From Crossiella equi (GTDB taxonomy: Bacteria; Actinomycetota; Actinomycetes; Mycobacteriales; Pseudonocardiaceae), in NCBI RefSeq assembly GCF_017876755.1, contig NZ_JAGIOO010000001.1, positions 6,619,786-6,683,785 of the forward strand: a DNA stretch of 64,000 nucleotides, given 5' to 3'. Below the pieces are notes generated by a model that saw nothing but the letters and a program-made list of their open reading frames with translations, was not told the origin of the DNA and ran no database searches. Position numbers and translations under genes: made by a program. This document shows, one piece after another, positions 13,962-23,456 of the stretch; within the stretch, counting starts at the first letter, position 1, and each line of letters begins with the position of its first letter.

Positions 13962-15215
13962 TTGCCTGGACCACCGCCCGAACCAGCACCCGGACCGCCG
14001 CCGGGACCAGTGCCGAGACCGCCGTCCAGGCCAGCGCCCGGGCGGTCCTCCGCCGCACCGCCGGTACCGCGCAGCCACGCCGAGCACGTCGCCGACATGC
14101 GCGCGCACAGCCAGGCCGGGGAGGCCGTGCTGGCCGCGTTCGCCCAGGTGGACCGGGGTGACTTCGTGCCCGACCGGGTGTGGTGCTCGGTGCGCGGGAA
14201 CCTGCCCGTCGCCCTGGACCGGCGCGTGGACGGCGAGCTGTGGCGGGAGGCGGTGTACGGCGACACCGTCGTGGTCACCCAGTTCGACGACGGGCGCACC
14301 CGGTGGCCGGAGGTCGGCCGGGTCGCCACCAGCAGCGCCTCGCAGCCCCGGCTGGTGGTGGACATGCTGGCGCACCTGGACCTCGCCCCGGGCATGCGGG
14401 TGCTGGAGGTCGGTGCGGGCACCGGGTACAACGCCGCGCTGCTGGCCGCGTTGACCGGGCCGGGCACGGTGACCACGGTCGAGCTGGACCCGGTGCTGGC
14501 CGAGCTCGCCGAGGCGAACCTGAGGCGGGCGGGCGCGGACGTCGAGGTGGTGTGCGGGGACGGTGCGCTCGGGGTGCCCGCACGGGCGCCGTTCGACCGC
14601 GTGGTGGCCACCGTCGCGGTGGTCGGCGACGGGCTGCCGTACGCCTGGGCCGAGCAGACCCGGCCGGGCGGCGTCATCCTCACCCCGTGGGGCACCGCCT
14701 ACGACAACGGCGTGCTGCTGCACCTGGTGGTGCGCCCGGACGGCTCGGCCAGCGGGCCGGTGGTCGGCGGGGTGGCGTTCATGCAGCTGCGCGCCCAGCG
14801 CCTGCCCGTCACCGACTCCGCCGAGCTCGTACACAACTTGTATGCAAGGCGTGCGCGAGGCAGCGAGGTACCGCCCGACGAGGTCGCGCTGGGCGAGGGC
14901 GTGTTCGCCATCGGCGTACGGCTGCCGGACGTGCGCTGCGAGGTCACCTGGACCGGCCGCTACGACCACGAGGTGCTGCTGGCCGACCCGGCCAGCGGGT
15001 CGGGCGCGCTGGCCGAGGTGCGCGACGGCGTGGTCGAGGTCCGCGAGACCGGCCCCCGCGCGCTGTGGGCGGAGGCCGAGGCGGCGCACGCCTGGTGGGT
15101 GGCACGCGGCCGCCCCGGCCTGCACCGCTTCGGCGTCACGCTCACCCGCGAGGGCCACCGGGTGTGGCTGGACACCGAGGCCGAGGTGGTCAGCCCCGGG
15201 CCGCCGCGGCGGTGA
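13962..15215 (+). CDS. Protein-L-isoaspartate methyltransferase-like protein
   Basis: A 417-residue protein of the PCMT family. HAEHVADMRAHSQAGEAVLAAFAQVDRGDFVPD and SSASQPRLVVDMLAHLDLAPGMRVLEVGAGTGYNAALLAAL (SAM motif I) are typical of the actinomycete subgroup found as peptide-maturation or antibiotic-cluster methyltransferases. The catalytic domain ends near residue 260; about 150 further residues (YDHEVLLADPASGSGALAEV and onward) form the extension usual in that subgroup. The first 38 residues are mostly Pro and Ala and look disordered. The TTG start at 13962 follows GGGGAG; an internal ATG at 14098 is possible. True repair activity or a modified-peptide role cannot be separated here. No lanthipeptide genes are adjacent. 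Its 3' end overlaps folD by 26 bp. Confidence 0.75.
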   Translation: MPGPPPEPAPGPPPGPVPRPPSRPAPGRSSAAPPVPRSHAEHVADMRAHSQAGEAVLAAFAQVDRGDFVPDRVWCSVRGNLPVALDRRVDGELWREAVYGDTVVVTQFDDGRTRWPEVGRVATSSASQPRLVVDMLAHLDLAPGMRVLEVGAGTGYNAALLAALTGPGTVTTVELDPVLAELAEANLRRAGADVEVVCGDGALGVPARAPFDRVVATVAVVGDGLPYAWAEQTRPGGVILTPWGTAYDNGVLLHLVVRPDGSASGPVVGGVAFMQLRAQRLPVTDSAELVHNLYARRARGSEVPPDEVALGEGVFAIGVRLPDVRCEVTWTGRYDHEVLLADPASGSGALAEVRDGVVEVRETGPRALWAEAEAAHAWWVARGRPGLHRFGVTLTREGHRVWLDTEAEVVSPGPPRR

Positions 15216-16029
15216 CGGTCTGCTCCAACAGCACCGCGATCGTCATCGGCCCCACCCCGCCCGGCACCGGCGTGATCAGGCCGGCCCGCTGCCGGGCCTC
15301 CTCGAAGGCCACATCGCCGACGTTGCCCGGGTTGTAACCGGCGTCCACCACGACCGCCCCTGACTTGACCCACTCCCCGCGCACCAGTTCGGGCCTGCCC
15401 ACGGCGGCCACCACCACGTCCGCCTCGCGCACCACCTCGGCCAGGCGCTCGGTGCGCGAGTGGCAGACGGTGACCGTGGCGTCCTGGGCGAGCAGCAGCG
15501 CGGCGACCGGCTTGCCCAGGATCGGGCTGCGGCCGATGACCACCGCGCGGCGTCCGGCCAGCTTCACGTCGTACTCGGCGAGCAGCCGCAGGATGCCCGC
15601 CGGGGTGCACGAGGCGAAGCCGGGCAGCCCGAAGGACATCGCGCCGAAGGAGGCGACGGTGACCCCGTCCACGTCCTTGCCGGGCGCGATGGCCTCGAAG
15701 GCCGCGCGCTCGTCCAGGTGCCCGGGCACCGGGTGCTGCAACAGGATGCCGTCCACACCGGGGTCGGCCGACAGCTCGCCGAGCACGTCCAGCAGCCGCT
15801 GCTGCGTGGTGTCGGCGGGCAGGGCCACGTGCCGGGACTCGATCCCGGCCTTGCGGCAGCGGTTCTGCTTCATGCGCACGTACGTGGCCGAGGCCGGTTC
15901 CTCGCCCACCAGCACCGTGGCCAGGCAGGGCCGGCGGCCGGTGGTGCGGAACAGCTCCTCGGCCCGGGCGCTCGCCTCCGCGACGATCCGGGCGGCGGGT
16001 TCGACCCCGCTCAGCAGTGACGCGACCAT
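15190..16029 (-). CDS. folD: Methylenetetrahydrofolate dehydrogenase/cyclohydrolase
   Basis: A 279-residue bifunctional folate enzyme that interconverts 5,10-methylene-, methenyl- and 10-formyl-tetrahydrofolate. The signature ATVLVGEEPASATYVRMKQNRCRKAGI holds the catalytic Lys (in YVRMKQ), LLQHPVPGHLDE and KDVDGVT follow, and the NADP-binding VVIGRSPILGKPVAALLL and PVPGGVGPMTIAVLLEQT end the domain. The start is ATG 16029 with GGAGG at proper distance. A perfect inverted repeat lies 18 bp upstream of the start. The gene follows the conservon on the same strand after a 120-bp gap and overlaps the convergent methyltransferase. Confidence 0.95.
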   Translation of the reverse strand: MVASLLSGVEPAARIVAEASARAEELFRTTGRRPCLATVLVGEEPASATYVRMKQNRCRKAGIESRHVALPADTTQQRLLDVLGELSADPGVDGILLQHPVPGHLDERAAFEAIAPGKDVDGVTVASFGAMSFGLPGFASCTPAGILRLLAEYDVKLAGRRAVVIGRSPILGKPVAALLLAQDATVTVCHSRTERLAEVVREADVVVAAVGRPELVRGEWVKSGAVVVDAGYNPGNVGDVAFEEARQRAGLITPVPGGVGPMTIAVLLEQTVTAAAARG

Positions 16030-16047
16030 CCGCACCTCCAGGCTCGG

Positions 16048-16068
16048 CTCAAGCCCAGTTGGCTTGAG
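16048..16068 (-). promoter_or_regulatory. Inverted repeat before folD
   Basis: CTCAAGCC (16048-16055), five bases, GGCTTGAG (16061-16068): a perfect 8-bp inverted repeat ending 18 bases before the folD ATG. CTCAAG...CTTGAG arms recall MerR-type operators, but it could equally be an RNA hairpin in the leader or the terminator of the conservon. Confidence 0.45.
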
Positions 16069-16149
16069 GTGCCCAGGCGCGCGGCGGGATCGGCGGGCCG
16101 CTCCCCGGTGGTACTCCACCCTCAGCGCCAGTCACGGCCCGCCACCACT

Positions 16150-16761
16150 CTAACGCGCCAGCTCCGCCTGCTCGGCGTGCATCCGGCGCAGCAGCACCTG
16201 CTCGATCAGCGAGACCAGCACGCCCTTGACCGAGCCGCGCGCCCGGGCGTCGCAGGTGACGATCGGCACCGTCTCGTCGATGCCCAGCGCCTCGCGCACC
16301 TCGTCCATGGCGAAGCGCCGCGCGCCCTCGAACTCGTTGACCGCGAGCAGGAACGGGACGCCCTTCTCCTCGAAGTAGTCCACCGCCGGATAGCAGTCCT
16401 CGATGCGCTGCGTGTCGGCCAGGATCACCCCGCCGAGCGCGCCCTCCACCAGGTCGTCCCACAGGAAGGAGAAGCGCTCCTGGCCGGGCGTGCCGAACAG
16501 GTAGAGCACCAGGCTGCGGTCCAGGGAGACGCGGCCGAAGTCGAAGGCCACGGTCGTGGTGGTCTTGTCCGGCCGCCCGGTGGCGTCGTCCACGCCGACC
16601 GACACCTCGGTCATCGCGGCCTCGGTCTCCAGTGGCTCGATCTCGGAGATCGCGCCGATGAAGGTCGTCTTGCCGACCCCGAACCCGCCGCTCACGATGA
16701 TCTTCACCGCGGACGGGATGGCGGCCTGCCCGTCGTGGTCAGAGTGCCCGGACAAGGTCAC
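16150..16761 (-). CDS. Conservon small GTPase (CvnD type)
   Basis: A 203-residue Ras-like GTP-binding protein, fourth member of the actinomycete conservon. Walker A is GGFGVGKTT (about residues 25-33), the DxxG-like switch region is LFGTPGQERFSFLW, and AVNEFEG stands in for the NKxD guanine-binding loop. Conservon GTPases are membrane-associated partners of the kinase and Roadblock proteins and act in a G-protein-like signalling complex. The start is GTG 16761, overlapping the DUF742 gene's end by 23 bp. It is the last gene of the four-gene operon. Confidence 0.92.
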   Translation of the reverse strand: MTLSGHSDHDGQAAIPSAVKIIVSGGFGVGKTTFIGAISEIEPLETEAAMTEVSVGVDDATGRPDKTTTTVAFDFGRVSLDRSLVLYLFGTPGQERFSFLWDDLVEGALGGVILADTQRIEDCYPAVDYFEEKGVPFLLAVNEFEGARRFAMDEVREALGIDETVPIVTCDARARGSVKGVLVSLIEQVLLRRMHAEQAELAR

Positions 16762-17182
16762 GGATCCTTTCGAGTACGGGGACCGGCAGCTCGGCGCGCG
16801 CCTTCACGGACAGCAGGCCACCGGTGACGAGGTCGGCGACGAGCACCTGCGCCACACCGACCGGCACGGTCAGCAGCGCGGCGACCTCGGCCACCGACCG
16901 GGGAGTCTGGCAGAGCTCGACGATCCGCCGCCGCTCGAACGCCAGGGGCGCGGACAGCGCGGCGGGCAGCGCGCCCACCATGGTGTCCAGGCGCACACCG
17001 TCGTGTAAGGGGCGGGTACGACCGCCGGTCATGATGAACGGCCGGACGAAGGTGTCCTCGACCTCGTTGACCTCCCGCGGCGGCGCCTCCGGCGACGGGT
17101 GGCTGGGGACCGGGTCGAACCAGGACCTCGGGGTGGCCGCCGGGATCATCCGGGGGTCGGGCAGCCGGGGACCGTCACTCAC
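16739..17182 (-). CDS. Conservon DUF742 protein (CvnC type)
   Basis: A 147-residue protein with the DUF742 core: RPFIMTGGRTRPL (about 47-59), DTMV, RRRIVELCQTPRSVAEVAALLTVPVGVAQVLVADLVTGGLL, the last part resembling a winged-helix. It is the third gene of a conservon. The start GTG 17182 overlaps the Roadblock stop by 4 bp (GTGA). The N-terminal 45 residues are proline-rich. Confidence 0.92.
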   Translation of the reverse strand: MSDGPRLPDPRMIPAATPRSWFDPVPSHPSPEAPPREVNEVEDTFVRPFIMTGGRTRPLHDGVRLDTMVGALPAALSAPLAFERRRIVELCQTPRSVAEVAALLTVPVGVAQVLVADLVTGGLLSVKARAELPVPVLERIRDLVRAL

Positions 17183-17604
17183 CGCGGCAGGGCCTTCCGC
17201 AGCTCGCTGATCAGCAGCGGCGTCAGCATCCCGCCCGCGCGTTCGGCCAGCACGGCGATCTCGTAGCCGACCAGGCCGACGTCGCAGCCCGCCTCGGCGA
17301 GCACACCGATGCAGCTGCCGTCGGCGATGGCCGAGACAAGCAGGAAGCCGCGCTCCATCTCGATCATGATCAGCTTGAGGCCGTCGAAGTCGTAGCTGCG
17401 CGACGCGCTGCGCGCCAGGCTGGTCAGCCCGGACACCACCACCGCGAGCCGGTCCGCGGCGGCGCGGTCCAGGCCGTTGGACATGGCGATGAGCAGGCCG
17501 TCGGAGGACACGCACACGGCGTCGCGCACCCCGTCGGTGTCGCGGACGAAGTTGACGAGCAGCCAGTTGAACGTATGCCCGTTCGGGTGCAGTTCAACGG
17601 TCAC
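17179..17604 (-). CDS. Conservon Roadblock/LC7 protein (CvnB type)
   Basis: A 141-residue Roadblock/LC7 (MglB-like) protein: NWLLVNFVRDTDGVRDAVCVSSDGLLIAMS, then ADRLAVVVSGLTSLARSA and MERGFLLVSAIADGSCIGVLAEAGCDVGLVGYEIAVL. Such proteins dimerise and regulate the cognate small GTPase. It starts at GTG 17604, overlapping the kinase stop by 4 bp, and its own stop overlaps the DUF742 start by 4 bp, so the operon is tightly coupled. Confidence 0.94.
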   Translation of the reverse strand: MTVELHPNGHTFNWLLVNFVRDTDGVRDAVCVSSDGLLIAMSNGLDRAAADRLAVVVSGLTSLARSASRSYDFDGLKLIMIEMERGFLLVSAIADGSCIGVLAEAGCDVGLVGYEIAVLAERAGGMLTPLLISELRKALPR

Positions 17605-20189
17605 CGGGGGTCCTCCTCAGGGAGTCGGGGGTGGGACGGGGACGTGCGCGCCCCCGCCTCGGCGGGTGTGTCCGCGTCGACCAGGCCGCGTTGCCCGCGC
17701 CGGTGCCCGTTGCGGAAGGCGGACAGCATGGAGCGCACGTCGCCGGGGTCGCGCGCCTCCACGGGCGGGCGGTCGTCGGTGGGGCGGGGCCGGGGCGCGG
17801 GTTCGGCACGGGCCGGGCCCCGGTTCTTGGGCACGCGCTTGAGCAGGCCGTTCTTGGTGCGCGCACCGGGGGTGGCCTCGGGCCGGGCGGGTGCCGTCGC
17901 CGCGGCGGCCGCGCCGGTTGTCGTGACCGCCGGTGGGGCGGGCATCGGGGCCGGGGCCGTCGCCGGAGCGGGTGCGGTGGCCGGGCTGGGCGGGGTGACC
18001 GGACCGGGGGCAGCGGCCGTCACCGGGGCAGGTGCGGTGGCCGGGGCAGGTGCGGTGGCCGGAGCGATCGGTGCGGGCGCCGTCGCCGGGAGTGCCGGAG
18101 CCACCGGAGCCGCAGCGGGCGGTGCCGGGACCGCCGCGGGTGCCACTGCCGCGGGTGCCGGGCGCACGGCCTCGGGCTCCGGCGCGGCCGCCGTGCCGGG
18201 GACGGCGGGACGCCGTTCGGACGGGTCGGCGAGCACCGGACCGGGCAGCGTGATCCGCGCGGTGATGCCGGTGGCGGGGGAGTCGGCGAGCTCGACCGTC
18301 GCGGACAGCCGCCGCGCCAGGCGGCCCACCACGTAGTGGCCCAGGAACCGGGTCGGCGCGACCAGGAAGTTCTCCTCGCCGCGCAGGCGGGCGTTCGCCT
18401 TGGCCAGCGCCTCGGCGGGCATGCCGACCCCGTGGTCGATGATCGCCAGCAGGTAGCGGTCGCCGACCTTGCGGCCGTAGATCTCGACCTCCAGGTCCGG
18501 CGGGGAGAAGGACAGGCCGTTCTCGATCAGCTCGGCCAGCAGGTGCGCGACCTCGGTGACCACCGCGCCCGCGATGTGCACCTCGTCCATGCGGCGCAGC
18601 ACGACCCGGCGGTAGTCCTCGACCTCCGACAGCGCGGCGCGGATGACGTCGGTGATCGGCAGCGGCGCGGCCCACCGGCGCGGGTTGGACTGGCCGACCA
18701 GCACCAGCAGGCTCTCCGCGTTGCGGCGCATGCGGGTGGCCAGGTGGTCCAGCTCGAACAGGTTGGCCAGCGTGGTCGGGTTCAGCTCCTCCTGCTCGAA
18801 CTCGCTGATGAAGCCGAGCTGCCTGCGCACCAGGTTCTGGTTGCGGCGGCCCAGGTTGGCCAGCGACTCGCTAGTGTTGCGACGCAGCACCGCCTGCTCG
18901 GAGGCGAGGCTGAACGCGGTGTCCTGCACGCGGTCCAGGGCCTGCGCCACCGAGCGGATCTCCGTGGTCGACCGCTCGGGCACGGCCACCTTCGGCGGCG
19001 GTTGCGCGTACTCGGCGCCCTCTCCGGTGGCCGCCTGCACCCGGGCCACGGCCTCGGGCAGCCGGTGCCGGGCCATGTCGTCGGCCTCTCGCACCAGCGC
19101 CGCCAGCGGGCCGATGATCGAGCGCGTCGCGCCGAACACCAGCGCCACCTGCAGCGCCACCGCGGCCGCGGCCAGCGCCAGGTAGGCGATGAGCTGCCAG
19201 GTCGCCGACGCCGCCAGGCTCGCCGCGACCGCGCGGATGTCCTCGCCGACCGACTGCTGCACCCCGCGCATGTCGTCGACGAGCTCGGTCATCACCGACC
19301 ACCAGGTCTGCGGGTCCACGCGGCTGGGCAGCGCGCCCGCCGCACCGCCGACCGCGACGCTCTCGTAACTGGCGGCCTCGGTCGCCGCCCCTGACCGCAG
19401 CGCCTCGTCCAACCGGCTGCGCTGGTCCTGGGTGGCCGAGCGGGCGAACAGGGCCAGCGAGTTCTGCTTGCTCGCCCGGATCTCGCTGAAGTGCACGTAC
19501 TCCTGCTGCTGGCGGAACCGGTTGGCCGCGAACACGCCGTTGAGGAAGCCGCGCTCCTGCGCGGTGGCCTCCTTGGCCTCGCCCAGCGCGATCAGCGCCT
19601 GCACGCCGTGCCGGATCACCTTGTCCACCGACTCGCTCAGGCCCAGCTCGGACCGGGCCAGCTGCGTGATGTTGTCGGTGTAGTAGGTGAACGTGACGTC
19701 CCGTTCGGCCCGGCCGCCGTCCACGCCACCGCGCACCTGCGCGACCCCGCCCAGGCGGCCGAGCTCCGTGCGGAGGTCCGCCGCGCCGGGCAGCTCGCTC
19801 TCGGTGCTCTGCCGGTTCAGCCGCGACAGCACGCCGTCGGTGCGCGCCCGCTGCGCGTCCACCTGCGGCCGGTACCGGGACTCGCCGCCCAGCAGGCCGT
19901 TGGTCAGACCGCGTTCGCGCTGCAGCTCGTGGATGAGGTCCTGCACGCCGAGCGCGAGTGAGACCGACTCGGCGGTGTTGTTGGCCTGCCGCTGCTGCCG
20001 CACCACGTCCACCACGACGATCGCCAGCAGCGCCAGCACGATGGCCAGGGAGACGGTGAGGACGCGGGCGAGCTTGGCCCGGATGGAGCGCGGCCGCAGG
20101 AACGCGGAGACGAGCTCGGTGGAACGGGGTGTTTCGGTGACCTCGTCCTGCTGGGGTGCGGCGGTGACCGAGCGGTGACGAGCGCCCAC
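17601..20189 (-). CDS. Conservon histidine kinase with nitrate/nitrite-sensing-type sensor
   Basis: An 862-residue membrane sensor. After a first TM (about residues 42-65) comes a helical extracellular region with LIHELQRERGLTNGLLGG and QERGFLNGVFAANRF, the signature of the NIT (nitrate/nitrite-sensing) domain, then a second TM (WQLIAYLALAAAAVALQVALVFG), a HAMP-like linker and a kinase core (RRNTSESLANLGRRNQNLVRRQLGFI; ATPase motifs LIENGLSFSPP and DHGVGM). The last 190 residues are a Pro/Ala repeat tail (PATAPAPATAPAP type). The start is GTG 20189 just after GGAGG. First gene of the conservon. It is divergent from nitrate-assimilation genes, which supports a nitrate/nitrite signal, by inference only. 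Confidence 0.9.
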   Translation of the reverse strand: MGARHRSVTAAPQQDEVTETPRSTELVSAFLRPRSIRAKLARVLTVSLAIVLALLAIVVVDVVRQQRQANNTAESVSLALGVQDLIHELQRERGLTNGLLGGESRYRPQVDAQRARTDGVLSRLNRQSTESELPGAADLRTELGRLGGVAQVRGGVDGGRAERDVTFTYYTDNITQLARSELGLSESVDKVIRHGVQALIALGEAKEATAQERGFLNGVFAANRFRQQQEYVHFSEIRASKQNSLALFARSATQDQRSRLDEALRSGAATEAASYESVAVGGAAGALPSRVDPQTWWSVMTELVDDMRGVQQSVGEDIRAVAASLAASATWQLIAYLALAAAAVALQVALVFGATRSIIGPLAALVREADDMARHRLPEAVARVQAATGEGAEYAQPPPKVAVPERSTTEIRSVAQALDRVQDTAFSLASEQAVLRRNTSESLANLGRRNQNLVRRQLGFISEFEQEELNPTTLANLFELDHLATRMRRNAESLLVLVGQSNPRRWAAPLPITDVIRAALSEVEDYRRVVLRRMDEVHIAGAVVTEVAHLLAELIENGLSFSPPDLEVEIYGRKVGDRYLLAIIDHGVGMPAEALAKANARLRGEENFLVAPTRFLGHYVVGRLARRLSATVELADSPATGITARITLPGPVLADPSERRPAVPGTAAAPEPEAVRPAPAAVAPAAVPAPPAAAPVAPALPATAPAPIAPATAPAPATAPAPVTAAAPGPVTPPSPATAPAPATAPAPMPAPPAVTTTGAAAAATAPARPEATPGARTKNGLLKRVPKNRGPARAEPAPRPRPTDDRPPVEARDPGDVRSMLSAFRNGHRRGQRGLVDADTPAEAGARTSPSHPRLPEEDPR

Positions 20190-20606
20190 CAAACCTCCGA
20201 TCCGTGGAATTCGACAGGCCGTTTCGCTCGAGTCATTGGCGTGCGGCCGCCTGCACGCTCTCAGCTTTGACCTAGGACGACAATACGACAACCGGGTGAA
20301 TCACGCGCGTTGTCACCAAGCGTGACCGAAGATCGCTGACCAATCGATCAGCTGGCCTGATTCCACCTCTTTGAAGGCGCTGACCAGGTGTTATGAACGC
20401 CCGGAAAACCCATCCCATGGGTGTTACAGCTCATCTCGTGAACTTATACACTGATTTCATACGGGTAACGAAGTGGCATTTGCGCACTTGAGCCTGATCT
20501 TTGTGCGCTAAGCGCCCTTTCTGCTAAGAAGCTGGCGTTCCATTGCGTCCCGGGCGGTCCTGGGAATTCCGCCGCCGTCCGAAGTCCGTCGCTGGAGGCG
20601 AAGAGC
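20190..20606. promoter_or_regulatory. Shared control region of conservon and nitrate genes
   Basis: A 417-bp divergent intergenic region, distinctly less GC-rich at 20280-20540. It holds an inverted repeat GTCAC-caagc-GTGAC (20312-20326) and a GlnR-like half site, GTTAC-N6-GAAAT on the minus strand (20469-20454). No further gene is seen. The downstream oxidoreductase has a clear GGAGG before its ATG. Confidence 0.4.
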
Positions 20607-22097
20607 ATGAGCCCGCGGCAGGTCGTCGTGGCCGGGTACGGCATGGCCGGGGCGCGGCTGGCGGAGGAGGTGCGCCGCCGGGAGCCCGACCCCGGGCAGC
20701 TCGCGCTCACCGTCCTCGGCGCCGAGTCCGAACCGGCCTACAACCGCGTGCTGCTCTCCGGCGTGCTGGCCGGGCGGCTGCCCGGAGTGGGCGTTCACCT
20801 GCAGGAACCCGACTGGGCCCAGCGCAGTGGCGTCGACCTGCGCCTGGGCGTGGCGGCCACCGGCCTGGACCGGGCACGGCGTGAGGTGACCCTCGCCGAC
20901 GGCTCGGCCGTGCGCTACGACGCGCTCGTGCTCGCCACCGGCGCCCGCCCGTGGCTGCCGCCGACCCCCGGTCTGTGCGGCCCGGACGGTGCCCCCGCGC
21001 CGGGCGTGCGGTGCTTCCGGACCGTGGAGGACTGCGCTCAGATCGTTGAAGCGGCCCGTCCCGGCGCGCCCGTCGCGGTGCTCGGCGGCGGACTGCTCGG
21101 GCTGGAGGCGGCCCGGGGCCTGGCGGGCCGGGGAAGCCTGGTCACGGTCGTGCACCCGGTCGCACACCTCATGGAACGCCAGCTCGACCCGGTCGCGGGC
21201 GCGATCCTGGCCGGGGTGCTGGCCGAGCTCGGCATCGAGTTCCGGCTCGGCGTGACCGCGACCGCCTACCGCCCTGGTGACGGACTGTCACTGTCAGATG
21301 GTCGACACGTGCCCGCCGACCTCGTCGTGGTGGCCGCGGGCGCGCTGCCGGACACCGCGCTCGCCGAGGCGGCCGGGCTCGCCTGCGACCGGGGCGTGCT
21401 CGTGGACGACGCCCTGCGCACCGACGACCCGCGTGTGCACGCCATCGGCGACTGCGCCCGCCACCCCGGCACCCTCGGCGGGTTCGTGCAGCCAGCCTGG
21501 GAACAGGCGGCGGTGCTGGCCGACCTGCTCACCGGCGCCAACCCGGCCGCGCGCTACCGGGGCACCCCGGCCGTGACACGCCTGAAGGTGCGCGAGGTCG
21601 ACCTGGCCGCCCTGGGCGAGGCGCACCTGGAGCGGGACGACCCGGGGGTGGAGGTCCTGCGCCTGGAGGACTCCGCCCGGGGCCGCTACTGCAAGCTCGT
21701 GCTGCGCGGCGACCGCGTGGCGGGCGCGATCCTGCTCGGCACGCCGGACGCCGCCGCCCGCATCACCCAGCTCTACGACCGCGGCGACCCGGTGCCCACC
21801 GACCGCCTGGCCCTGCTGCTGGGCCGCGCGCTGCCCGAGGACGCGCCAGCGGCCGCGCACTCGGCCGACCTGCCACCCACCGCGGTGGTCTGCCGTTGCA
21901 ACACCGTCACCAAGCAGACCCTGGTGCGGGCCTGGCAGGACGGTGCGCGCGACGTGCCCGCCCTGGCCGGGGCCACCCGGGCCACCACCGGCTGCGGTGG
22001 CTGCACCGAGCAGGTGCGAGACCTGGCCGCCCGGCTGGCCGAGGCGGCGGAGGCCGCCGCCCAGGACCCCCACGCCGTTGCGGCGCAACGGCTCTGA
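20607..22097 (+). CDS. NasB-like FAD/[2Fe-2S] oxidoreductase
   Basis: A 496-residue flavoprotein resembling the electron-transfer subunit of assimilatory nitrate reductase or the N-terminal half of NirB. The FAD fold starts with VVVAGYGMAGARLAEEV (about 6-22) and SEPAYNRVLLSGVLAG, the NAD fold with VAVLGGGLLGLEAARGLAGRG (about 155-175), VHAIGDCARHPG marks the second FAD site, and the C-terminus is a BFD-like domain with CRCN and TTGCGGC, four cysteines for a [2Fe-2S] cluster. It precedes a NarK-type transporter by 30 bp. The catalytic nitrate reductase is not in the window. Confidence 0.85.
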   Translation: MSPRQVVVAGYGMAGARLAEEVRRREPDPGQLALTVLGAESEPAYNRVLLSGVLAGRLPGVGVHLQEPDWAQRSGVDLRLGVAATGLDRARREVTLADGSAVRYDALVLATGARPWLPPTPGLCGPDGAPAPGVRCFRTVEDCAQIVEAARPGAPVAVLGGGLLGLEAARGLAGRGSLVTVVHPVAHLMERQLDPVAGAILAGVLAELGIEFRLGVTATAYRPGDGLSLSDGRHVPADLVVVAAGALPDTALAEAAGLACDRGVLVDDALRTDDPRVHAIGDCARHPGTLGGFVQPAWEQAAVLADLLTGANPAARYRGTPAVTRLKVREVDLAALGEAHLERDDPGVEVLRLEDSARGRYCKLVLRGDRVAGAILLGTPDAAARITQLYDRGDPVPTDRLALLLGRALPEDAPAAAHSADLPPTAVVCRCNTVTKQTLVRAWQDGARDVPALAGATRATTGCGGCTEQVRDLAARLAEAAEAAAQDPHAVAAQRL

Positions 22098-22127
22098 CCC
22101 TCACAAGACAAGGCGGTTCGTGCGATC

Positions 22128-23456
22128 ATGAGCGTGCAGACCACTGTTCGCCGCGGCCGGTGGATCGACCACTGGGAACCCGAGAACCCGGAGTTCTGGG
22201 CGAGCACCGGCCGGAAGGTGGCCAACCGGAACCTGGTGTTCTCCATCCTGGCCGAACACCTGGGCTTCTCCGTGTGGCTGCTGTGGAGCGCGGTGACCGT
22301 GTTCCTGCCCCAGGCCGGGTTCGCCTTCTCGGTCGACCAGCTCTTCTGGCTGGTGGCGCTGCCGAACCTGGTCGGCTCGGTGCTGCGCCTGCCCTACACC
22401 TTCGCGGTCGCCGCCTTCGGCGGTCGCATGTGGACGGTGGTCAGCGCGTTCCTGTTGCTGGTGCCCACAGGGCTGCTCGCGTGGTGCGTCTCCGACCCGT
22501 CGACGCCCTACTGGATGTTCGTGGTCGCGGCCGTCACCGCGGGCCTGGGCGGCGGCAACTTCGCCTCGTCCATGGCCAACATCTCCTTCTTCTACCCCGA
22601 CTCCCGCAAGGGCTTCGCGCTCGGCCTCAACGCCGCGGGCGGCAACATCGGCGTGGCCGTGGTACAGCTCGTGGTGCCGCTGGTGATCTCCGCGGGCACC
22701 GGTGTGCACCTGGCCTACGCGGGCCTGCTGTGGATGCCGTTCGTGATCGTCGCGGGCGTGTGCGCGCTGTTCTTCATGGACTCACTGACCCAGGCGCGCT
22801 CGGACTTCAGCTCGTACGCGGCCTCCACGCGCAACCGCCACACCTGGGTGATGTCCTTCCTCTACATCGGCACCTTCGGCTCCTTCATCGGGTACTCGGC
22901 GGCGCTGCCGCTGCTGATCAACTCGACCTTCCCGGAGTCGAAGGCCGGGTACTTCGCCTTCCTCGGCGCGCTCGTCGGCTCGGCGTCCCGCCCGCTGGGC
23001 GGCTGGCTGGCCGACCGCTGGGGCGGCGGCCGCGTGACGCTGTGGACGTTCCTGTCCATGGGCCTGGGCGTGGCGGGCGTCGTGCAGGGCCTGACGCTGC
23101 ACGACTTCTGGCTGTTCCTGCTCTCCTTCCTGTGGCTGTTCGTGACCTCGGGCGTGGGCAACGGCTCGACGTTCCGGATGATCCCGGCGATCTTCAAGAA
23201 CCAGGTCGGGGACGCGGTGTCGGCCAAGCGCCAGTCGGCCGCGGTGATGGGGATCGCGGGCGCGGTCGGGGCCGTCGGGGGCTTCCTGATCACGCGCGCG
23301 TTCGCGATGTCGGTGACGGCGTACGGCTCGCTCGTGCCCGCGTTCCTGGCGTTCCTGGCCTTCTACGGGGTCTGCCTGGCGGTCACCTGGTGGTACTACC
23401 TGCGGCGGCGTGTGCTGGCCGTCCGCCTCCCGAGCCTGGCGCACGCCGGGGTGTGA
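22128..23456 (+). CDS. NarK/NasA-type nitrate/nitrite transporter (MFS)
   Basis: A 442-residue major facilitator protein of the nitrate/nitrite porter family. Diagnostic are the nitrate-signature motifs AGLGGGNFASSMANISFFYP (near residue 145) and GAVGAVGGFL near residue 385, the conserved Arg-containing LRLPYTFAV in TM2, and about 12 hydrophobic segments. The start is ATG 22128. It is 30 bp downstream of the NasB-like gene and probably in the same operon. Direction of transport (nitrate uptake or nitrite export) is not determinable, but the assimilatory neighbour favours uptake. Confidence 0.92.
   Translation: MSVQTTVRRGRWIDHWEPENPEFWASTGRKVANRNLVFSILAEHLGFSVWLLWSAVTVFLPQAGFAFSVDQLFWLVALPNLVGSVLRLPYTFAVAAFGGRMWTVVSAFLLLVPTGLLAWCVSDPSTPYWMFVVAAVTAGLGGGNFASSMANISFFYPDSRKGFALGLNAAGGNIGVAVVQLVVPLVISAGTGVHLAYAGLLWMPFVIVAGVCALFFMDSLTQARSDFSSYAASTRNRHTWVMSFLYIGTFGSFIGYSAALPLLINSTFPESKAGYFAFLGALVGSASRPLGGWLADRWGGGRVTLWTFLSMGLGVAGVVQGLTLHDFWLFLLSFLWLFVTSGVGNGSTFRMIPAIFKNQVGDAVSAKRQSAAVMGIAGAVGAVGGFLITRAFAMSVTAYGSLVPAFLAFLAFYGVCLAVTWWYYLRRRVLAVRLPSLAHAGV

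Follow-up and report, generated by a model that had tools for sequence, protein, structure and literature searches.

The window analyzed here, 64,000 nucleotides from the 9.44-Mb single-contig genome of Crossiella equi, contains a complete conservon, an actinobacterial G-protein system, on the minus strand at positions 16150–20189 in the order cvnA-B-C-D. The gene cvnA (17601–20189, minus strand) begins with a GTG start codon and encodes a sensor kinase-like protein of 862 amino acids according to gene call and Pfam. It is followed on the same strand by cvnB (17179–17604), encoding a Roadblock/LC7 protein (PF03259, E 1e-20), cvnC (16739–17182), encoding a DUF742 protein (PF05331, E 7.8e-24), and cvnD (16150–16761), encoding a small GTPase recognized by the ATP/GTP-binding domain PF03029 (E 9.7e-26) and a weak Ras match. 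In the gene calls, the end of each gene overlaps the start of the next one. The conservon named in the initial annotation is thereby borne out, with all four genes found by Pfam in this order. The interval given for the system, 17601–23456, covers the kinase, the nasB-like gene and narK and leaves out cvnB to cvnD at 16150–17604.

The conservon lies head to head with two genes on the plus strand. The nearer one (20607–22097) encodes a nasB-like FAD/NAD(P)H oxidoreductase with a BFD [2Fe-2S] domain (Pyr_redox_2, Fer2_BFD), and its product resembles the N-terminal half of NirB. It is followed by narK (22128–23456), encoding a nitrate/nitrite transporter of the MFS type, which is matched by the NarU and NarK models, though with scores short of the curated cut-offs (TIGR00886: 305.8 vs. 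311.7 bits). The start codons of the kinase and of the nasB-like gene are separated by exactly 417 bp, as had been described. The gene names, nasB among them, are those in common use, and the letters differ in the Amycolatopsis scheme. The nasB-narK pair represents a partial second copy. The genome contains a fuller nas locus at a distance of about 0.73 Mb, where narK and nasB were identified by search and nasA, nirB, and nirD by eye from the gene calls. The two nasB copies are 69% identical. No nasA adjoins the pair in the window, unlike the nasA-nasB-narK arrangement found in five loci of a second genus described below.

On the other side of the conservon, a copy of folD (15190–16119, minus strand) sits between cvnD and a PCMT gene, headed by a ZMP/ZTP riboswitch (Rfam RF01750, 63 bits; 16064–16145, minus strand). 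The folD copy and its riboswitch were considered as a part of the system and rejected, since folD is missing from the four other genomes of the genus at an E-value of 1e-60.

Within CvnA, a NIT sensory domain spans amino acids 84–318 (19236–19940, minus strand; PF08376, E 2.2e-47) with a score of 162.9 bits vs. a curated cut-off of 24.9. Hydrophobic segments are present on both sides of it (amino acids 44–63 and 333–352), and the NIT domain is therefore predicted to sit outside the membrane. The HATPase_c domain (18243–18557, minus strand; PF02518, E 6e-08) displays N and G boxes, a conserved His is found at amino acid 482, and the protein ends in a Pro/Ala-rich tail. Besides NIT and HATPase_c, the Pfam scan of CvnA returned only a sub-threshold HAMP domain (E up to 0.01).

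The family was then represented by 200 genomes, which were searched with the sensor region (297 amino acids) as query. Here, 21 genomes matched at an E-value of 1e-25 or better, and the neighborhood of the kinase was read in all of them. The kinase is head to head with nitrate genes in eight of the 21, which belong to two genera. These are three Crossiella genomes (genus g1; G000, G001, and G002), in which it faces nasB-narK, and five genomes of the genus g31 (G034, G071, G137, G153, and G169), in which it faces nasA-nasB-narK, as identified by BLAST and a Pfam scan of one nasA and one nasB. Linkage in relatives, the absence of which had been named as an argument against the proposal, is thus present. 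For the other 13 kinases no nitrate gene was seen nearby; among these, G106 does not allow a judgement, as its contig stops at the kinase start, and in G015 about 3.4 kb of contig remain beyond the kinase. A related kinase from another family of the order (G030) is unlinked to nitrate genes. Since the listing of the 200 genomes mostly shows genomes with matches, g31 genomes devoid of the kinase may exist. In a plasmid collection, 117 records contain some match to the kinase and none of these covers 80% of it.

The strength of this association was estimated in 24 chosen genomes, comprising the 21 with the kinase together with G003, G004, and G030, which contain 139 NIT domains and 30 narK genes. 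A narK is found at a distance of up to 10 kb from eight NIT domains, exactly the eight head-to-head ones; for the remaining 131, there is none within 20 kb. Around 0.37 NIT-narK pairs would be expected at random vs. the eight found, where the eight pairs stem from two lineages and are not independent, and the genomes had been selected for presence of the kinase. In four of the five g31 genomes, no narK other than the linked one was found. The pairing is real, is conserved in both genera and stands out as unusual among NIT kinases.

All eight linked kinases, including the one in the window, have retained the conserved His and intact ATPase boxes, and the N and G boxes are kept in each of them together with a LDHLATRMRR motif. 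The kinase of G169 contains an in-frame stop within its C-terminal tail. Four g31 genomes (G071, G137, G153, and G169; loci L142, L144, L143, and L140) encode a second NIT protein at a distance of 21–26 kb from the linked narK.

A comparison of the five Crossiella genomes revealed that the arrangement is present or absent as a whole. G003 and G004 lack an ortholog of the kinase (best E 2e-7 and 5e-7), and the second nasB and narK are missing as well, so that all six genes of the block are jointly absent. Here, PCMT and dinB, which flank the block elsewhere, adjoin each other with 0.4–0.7 kb between the homologous flanks. The 5.7 kb that were read past narK in G002 did not reveal a dinB. All five genomes possess another locus with narK next to nirB and with nasB near, and in the four of these canonical nas loci that were read as DNA a nasA-like gene was seen by eye before nasB. 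In the trees of NarK and NasB, the block copies and the canonical copies of Crossiella form separate, well-supported groups, which suggests that the two sets of copies had diverged by the time the sampled species separated. The line leading to G003 and G004 would then probably have lost the whole block together.

The linkage in the two genera has a more complicated history. In the kinase tree the g1 and g31 kinases are not joined, and the latter group with unlinked kinases of the genera g39 and g8. The linkage requires three changes on this tree, of which the starred branches force at least two. For NarK, the g31 copies branch as the sister group of all Crossiella proteins taken together, block and canonical (95/97), and for NasB they stand apart from all others. 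A single origin of the linkage does not emerge from these trees, with three changes in the kinase tree and with neither the NarK nor the NasB tree joining the Crossiella block copies with those of g31. The association with nas genes may have arisen twice, the alternative being one origin followed by losses. In the genus g39, four NIT kinases of the same subfamily (L146–L149) have no cvnB, cvnC, or cvnD neighbors in the gene calls, and in one of these genomes (G158, L146) the NIT kinase lies beside what by eye looks like a large regulator.

For the NIT domain itself, a structural model was obtained with AlphaFold2 from 38 aligned NIT domains (mean pLDDT 91). Among the solved structures, the model is closest to NasR from Klebsiella oxytoca (4akk_B; Z 29.6, rmsd 3.3, 271 residues aligned), the next chain reaching a Z of 10.4. 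In a Foldseek search with the model, nothing but the two NasR chains reached an E-value of 0.001 or lower, and a sequence search alone matches 4akk weakly (E 0.11). The model thus predicts a NasR-type helical fold for the NIT domain of CvnA. The initial annotation had pointed to the stretches RERGL and QERGFLNG as a NIT pattern; both are present in the kinase and align with the helix-1 and helix-5 segments of NasR. The helix-1 motif QRER (Q-x-x-R; 19911–19922, minus strand) aligns with QCER of NasR, and the helix-5 motif AQER (19551–19562, minus strand) with GQER, in which QER corresponds to Q174-E175-R176 of NasR (numbering of PMC7496416). These three residues lie on helix 5 of NasR, E175 and R176 have been predicted in the nitrate pocket, and RNA binding is lost in the E175A variant (PMC7496416). 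The nitrate-binding residues have been described as a G-x-x-R motif, of which NasR keeps both arginines, while one glycine is replaced by glutamine (PMC8199190).

The occurrence of these motifs was surveyed in 59 rows, corresponding to 57 different NIT domains with two held twice. The rows were taken from the 139 domains listed in the 24 genomes (32 of them) and from family searches, partly in other genomes (27 rows). All eight linked kinases contain QRER on helix 1 and QER on helix 5, and accordingly both arginines. Helix 5 reads GQER, identical to NasR, in the five g31 kinases and AQER in the three from Crossiella, where an Ala replaces the Gly of NasR and g31. Among the unlinked domains, the helix-5 QER occurs in six of 49 different domains (8 of 51 rows). 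The helix-1 QxxR was rejected as a marker because it is nearly universal in the domains surveyed, being found in 47 of the 51 unlinked rows, where two rows do not contain this stretch. The NIT domains of the two linked genera are only 51–53% identical to each other.

The presence of a NIT domain as such was rejected as evidence for nitrate sensing. The genome of the window encodes four NIT proteins, all in conservon-like settings, three with the genes A to D and one (at 8.6 Mb) with a Roadblock neighbor only, and for three of the four no narK lies nearby. Most CvnA proteins contain a NIT domain, and specialists consider that many of these domains might well sense something other than nitrate (PMC13343842). 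Given this frequency, the domain alone proves little, and it is the pairing with nitrate genes that counts as evidence.

The divergent region of 417 bp (20190–20606) displays several conserved blocks in an alignment of G000, G001, and G002, in which it measures 417, 418, and 417 bp, respectively. No 9-mer, allowing one mismatch, is common to all eight linked divergent regions. In the window, a GlnR-box-like pair, GTTAC-n6-GAAAT, is located at 20454–20469 on the minus strand with a possible third site, ATAAG (together 20443–20469), and all three Crossiella copies have retained the pair. It resembles the reported GlnR box consensus gTnAc-n6-GaAAc, known from the family member Amycolatopsis mediterranei, in which GlnR controls the nas operon (PMC10704036). 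The score of the Crossiella pair was matched by 0–1 of 200 shuffles, and the three-site score is above most shuffles in G001 and G002 (4 and 5 of 100), the best array of G000 lying elsewhere (37 of 100). Four-site arrays in Crossiella are no better than shuffles (42–61 of 100). In g31, the best pair does not exceed shuffles in four of five regions (102–152 of 200), and a four-site array upstream of nasA, reached by 0–2 of 100 shuffles, is present in four of five; in the fifth region (G034) the best array is found elsewhere (10 of 100).

All of these GlnR scores are crude, and the array score with its period of 11 bp was devised after the g31 alignment had been seen. Among other nas promoters, one of six stood out by the pair score and none of six by the array score. 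In a control of the pair score with eight other upstream regions, the region upstream of a paralogous kinase (L045) reached 14.0 (9 of 200). In a control of the array score with 25 regions, one three-site array upstream of another kinase (L043) was reached by 2 of 100 shuffles, and no four-site array was better than 6 of 100. Since hardly any other nas promoter stood out and some unrelated control regions also had high scores, the candidate sites are only a lead, hinting at a second control of the linked loci by GlnR.

In its architecture the system resembles the conservons 1 to 6 of Streptomyces coelicolor, which have the A-B-C-D order, a NIT domain between membrane segments, HATPase, Roadblock, a DUF742-type CvnC, and a GTPase (PMC8510531, PMC13343842). 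Different from these, the operon described here is divergent from nas genes, and this in two genera. Among the titles and abstract beginnings listed from the open-licence literature, no paper was found that ties a conservon to nitrate genes. With NasR (NIT and ANTAR antiterminator, PDB 4AKK) CvnA shares the predicted NIT fold, the helix-1 QxxR and the helix-5 QER. NasR, a one-component protein that binds RNA, has no membrane segments. In contrast, the NIT domain of CvnA is placed between membrane segments in a kinase with a G-protein operon, and Crossiella has an Ala for the Gly of NasR before QER. The targets of NasR are nitrate assimilation genes (PMC7496416). The kinases NarX and NarQ likewise have a membrane-bound helical nitrate sensor in front of the kinase domain; CvnA, however, contains neither a NarX/NarQ-type sensor nor such a dimerization domain by Pfam, and cvnB-D follow instead of a response regulator. 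The nas operon of A. mediterranei is a nitrate assimilation operon of the same family with GlnR sites upstream, whereas the Crossiella pair is devoid of nasA and nirBD, and the description of the Amycolatopsis operon consulted here mentions no conservon (PMC10704036).

The leading explanation of these observations is that the conservon is dedicated to nitrate/nitrite assimilation and senses nitrate or nitrite, for which the odds are about even (probability around 0.48). In analogy to the proposal for NasR, extracellular nitrate or nitrite would occupy a site between helices 1 and 5 of the CvnA NIT domain and thereby change the kinase activity. CvnA would then act, presumably with phosphotransfer, through CvnB as a GAP-like and CvnC as a GEF-like protein, which set the nucleotide state of CvnD. 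In turn, CvnD would alter the expression, or the activity, of the divergent nasB-narK pair, so that control would run from the conservon to the nitrate genes, probably added onto the control by GlnR under nitrogen limitation. For other conservons, CvnB has been reported to be a GAP and CvnC a likely GEF, a GTPase cycle controlled by CvnB and CvnC has been reported for the Mfp system, and CvnA8 autophosphorylates on the conserved His, where the phosphorylation target and the DNA-binding effector of Cvn8 are called unknown (PMC13343842).

A candidate for such an output is encoded in g31. In all five loci (L140–L144) a protein of about 950 amino acids starts 9–14 bp after cvnD, and the one that was Pfam-scanned contains BTAD, NB-ARC, and TPR domains, similar to AfsR/SARP proteins. 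This protein may be an effector that links CvnD to DNA. In the Crossiella block, no regulator or DNA-binding protein was recognized besides cvnA-D.

The sensor for the adjacent operon suggested in the initial annotation thus stays an inference. It gains from the linkage in eight of 21 genomes, the predicted NasR-type fold and the helix-5 QER, and it loses from the commonness of NIT domains, from the NIT domain of PA4520, which bound neither nitrate nor nitrite (PMC6381276), from the 13 of 21 kinases without a seen link (G106 being unjudgeable) and from a second nas copy that is dispensable in two sister species. Several of these points would also fit a functional pairing with another input, such as an envelope, redox, anion, or small-molecule cue, in which case the nitrogen control of the nas genes would come from GlnR and perhaps NnaR. 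PA4520 and the presence of NIT in most CvnA proteins argue in this direction, as do the GlnR-like pair in all three Crossiella regions, the four-site array in four of five g31 regions and the GlnR control of the A. mediterranei operon; GlnR-like sites would even offer a sufficient regulator, which weakens the nitrate reading. Such an input is nevertheless rather unlikely, since it would make the helix-5 QER in all linked kinases, rare among the others surveyed, a coincidence, and the GlnR scores are crude.

Clearly less probable is that conservon and nitrate genes are neighbors without a regulatory link, which came to share a divergent region by chance in two lineages and move or vanish as one block. 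The eight of 139 NIT domains found near narK vs. 0.37 expected, the same divergent orientation in both genera despite different nas sets (nasB-narK or nasA-nasB-narK) and the conserved blocks in the Crossiella region all oppose it. Nevertheless, a chance history would be in line with linked kinases that do not form one clade, with the two Crossiella genomes that keep a nas locus without the conservon, with the missing link in 13 of 21 homologues and with the lack of a common 9-mer. Furthermore, the flux through NarK or the redox state of NasB might gate CvnA, while CvnD acts on unrelated genes. Transporter-coupled sensing is known elsewhere, and nasB and narK are the genes common to both linked types. 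CvnA, however, has a full sensory domain itself, and this explanation, with its hypothetical interaction, is very improbable.

If nitrate or nitrite sensing is correct, the system could be the first conservon for which both a ligand and a fitting target can be named, in which an extracytoplasmic NasR-type receptor signals through a Ras-like G protein to nitrate assimilation, with the AfsR/SARP-like factor of the same operon as output in g31 and possibly two origins. As a whole, this proposal is tentative and the odds are somewhat against it. S. coelicolor has 13 conservons, and the inputs of conservons are poorly understood (PMC13343842). The pairing owes its value to the specific ligand and target that it suggests for such systems, and its recurrence in a second genus makes nitrate a good, testable candidate signal for conservons. 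It leads to a concrete question with one ligand class, one sensor domain and one shared promoter region. The g31 operon in addition offers a candidate for the DNA-binding step called unknown for Cvn8 (PMC13343842), and, if true, a full path from ligand via kinase and G protein to DNA would be present in this genus.

Two further features were observed. The block NasB proteins of G001 (L038, 7107–9047) and G002 (L039, 10697–12610) have a Pro/Ala-rich tail of about 140–150 amino acids, which is absent from the copy in the window. Farther downstream in the window, an mraW RNA motif (RF01746; 37517–37626, plus strand) is located upstream of a gene identified by eye as rsmH/mraW-like.
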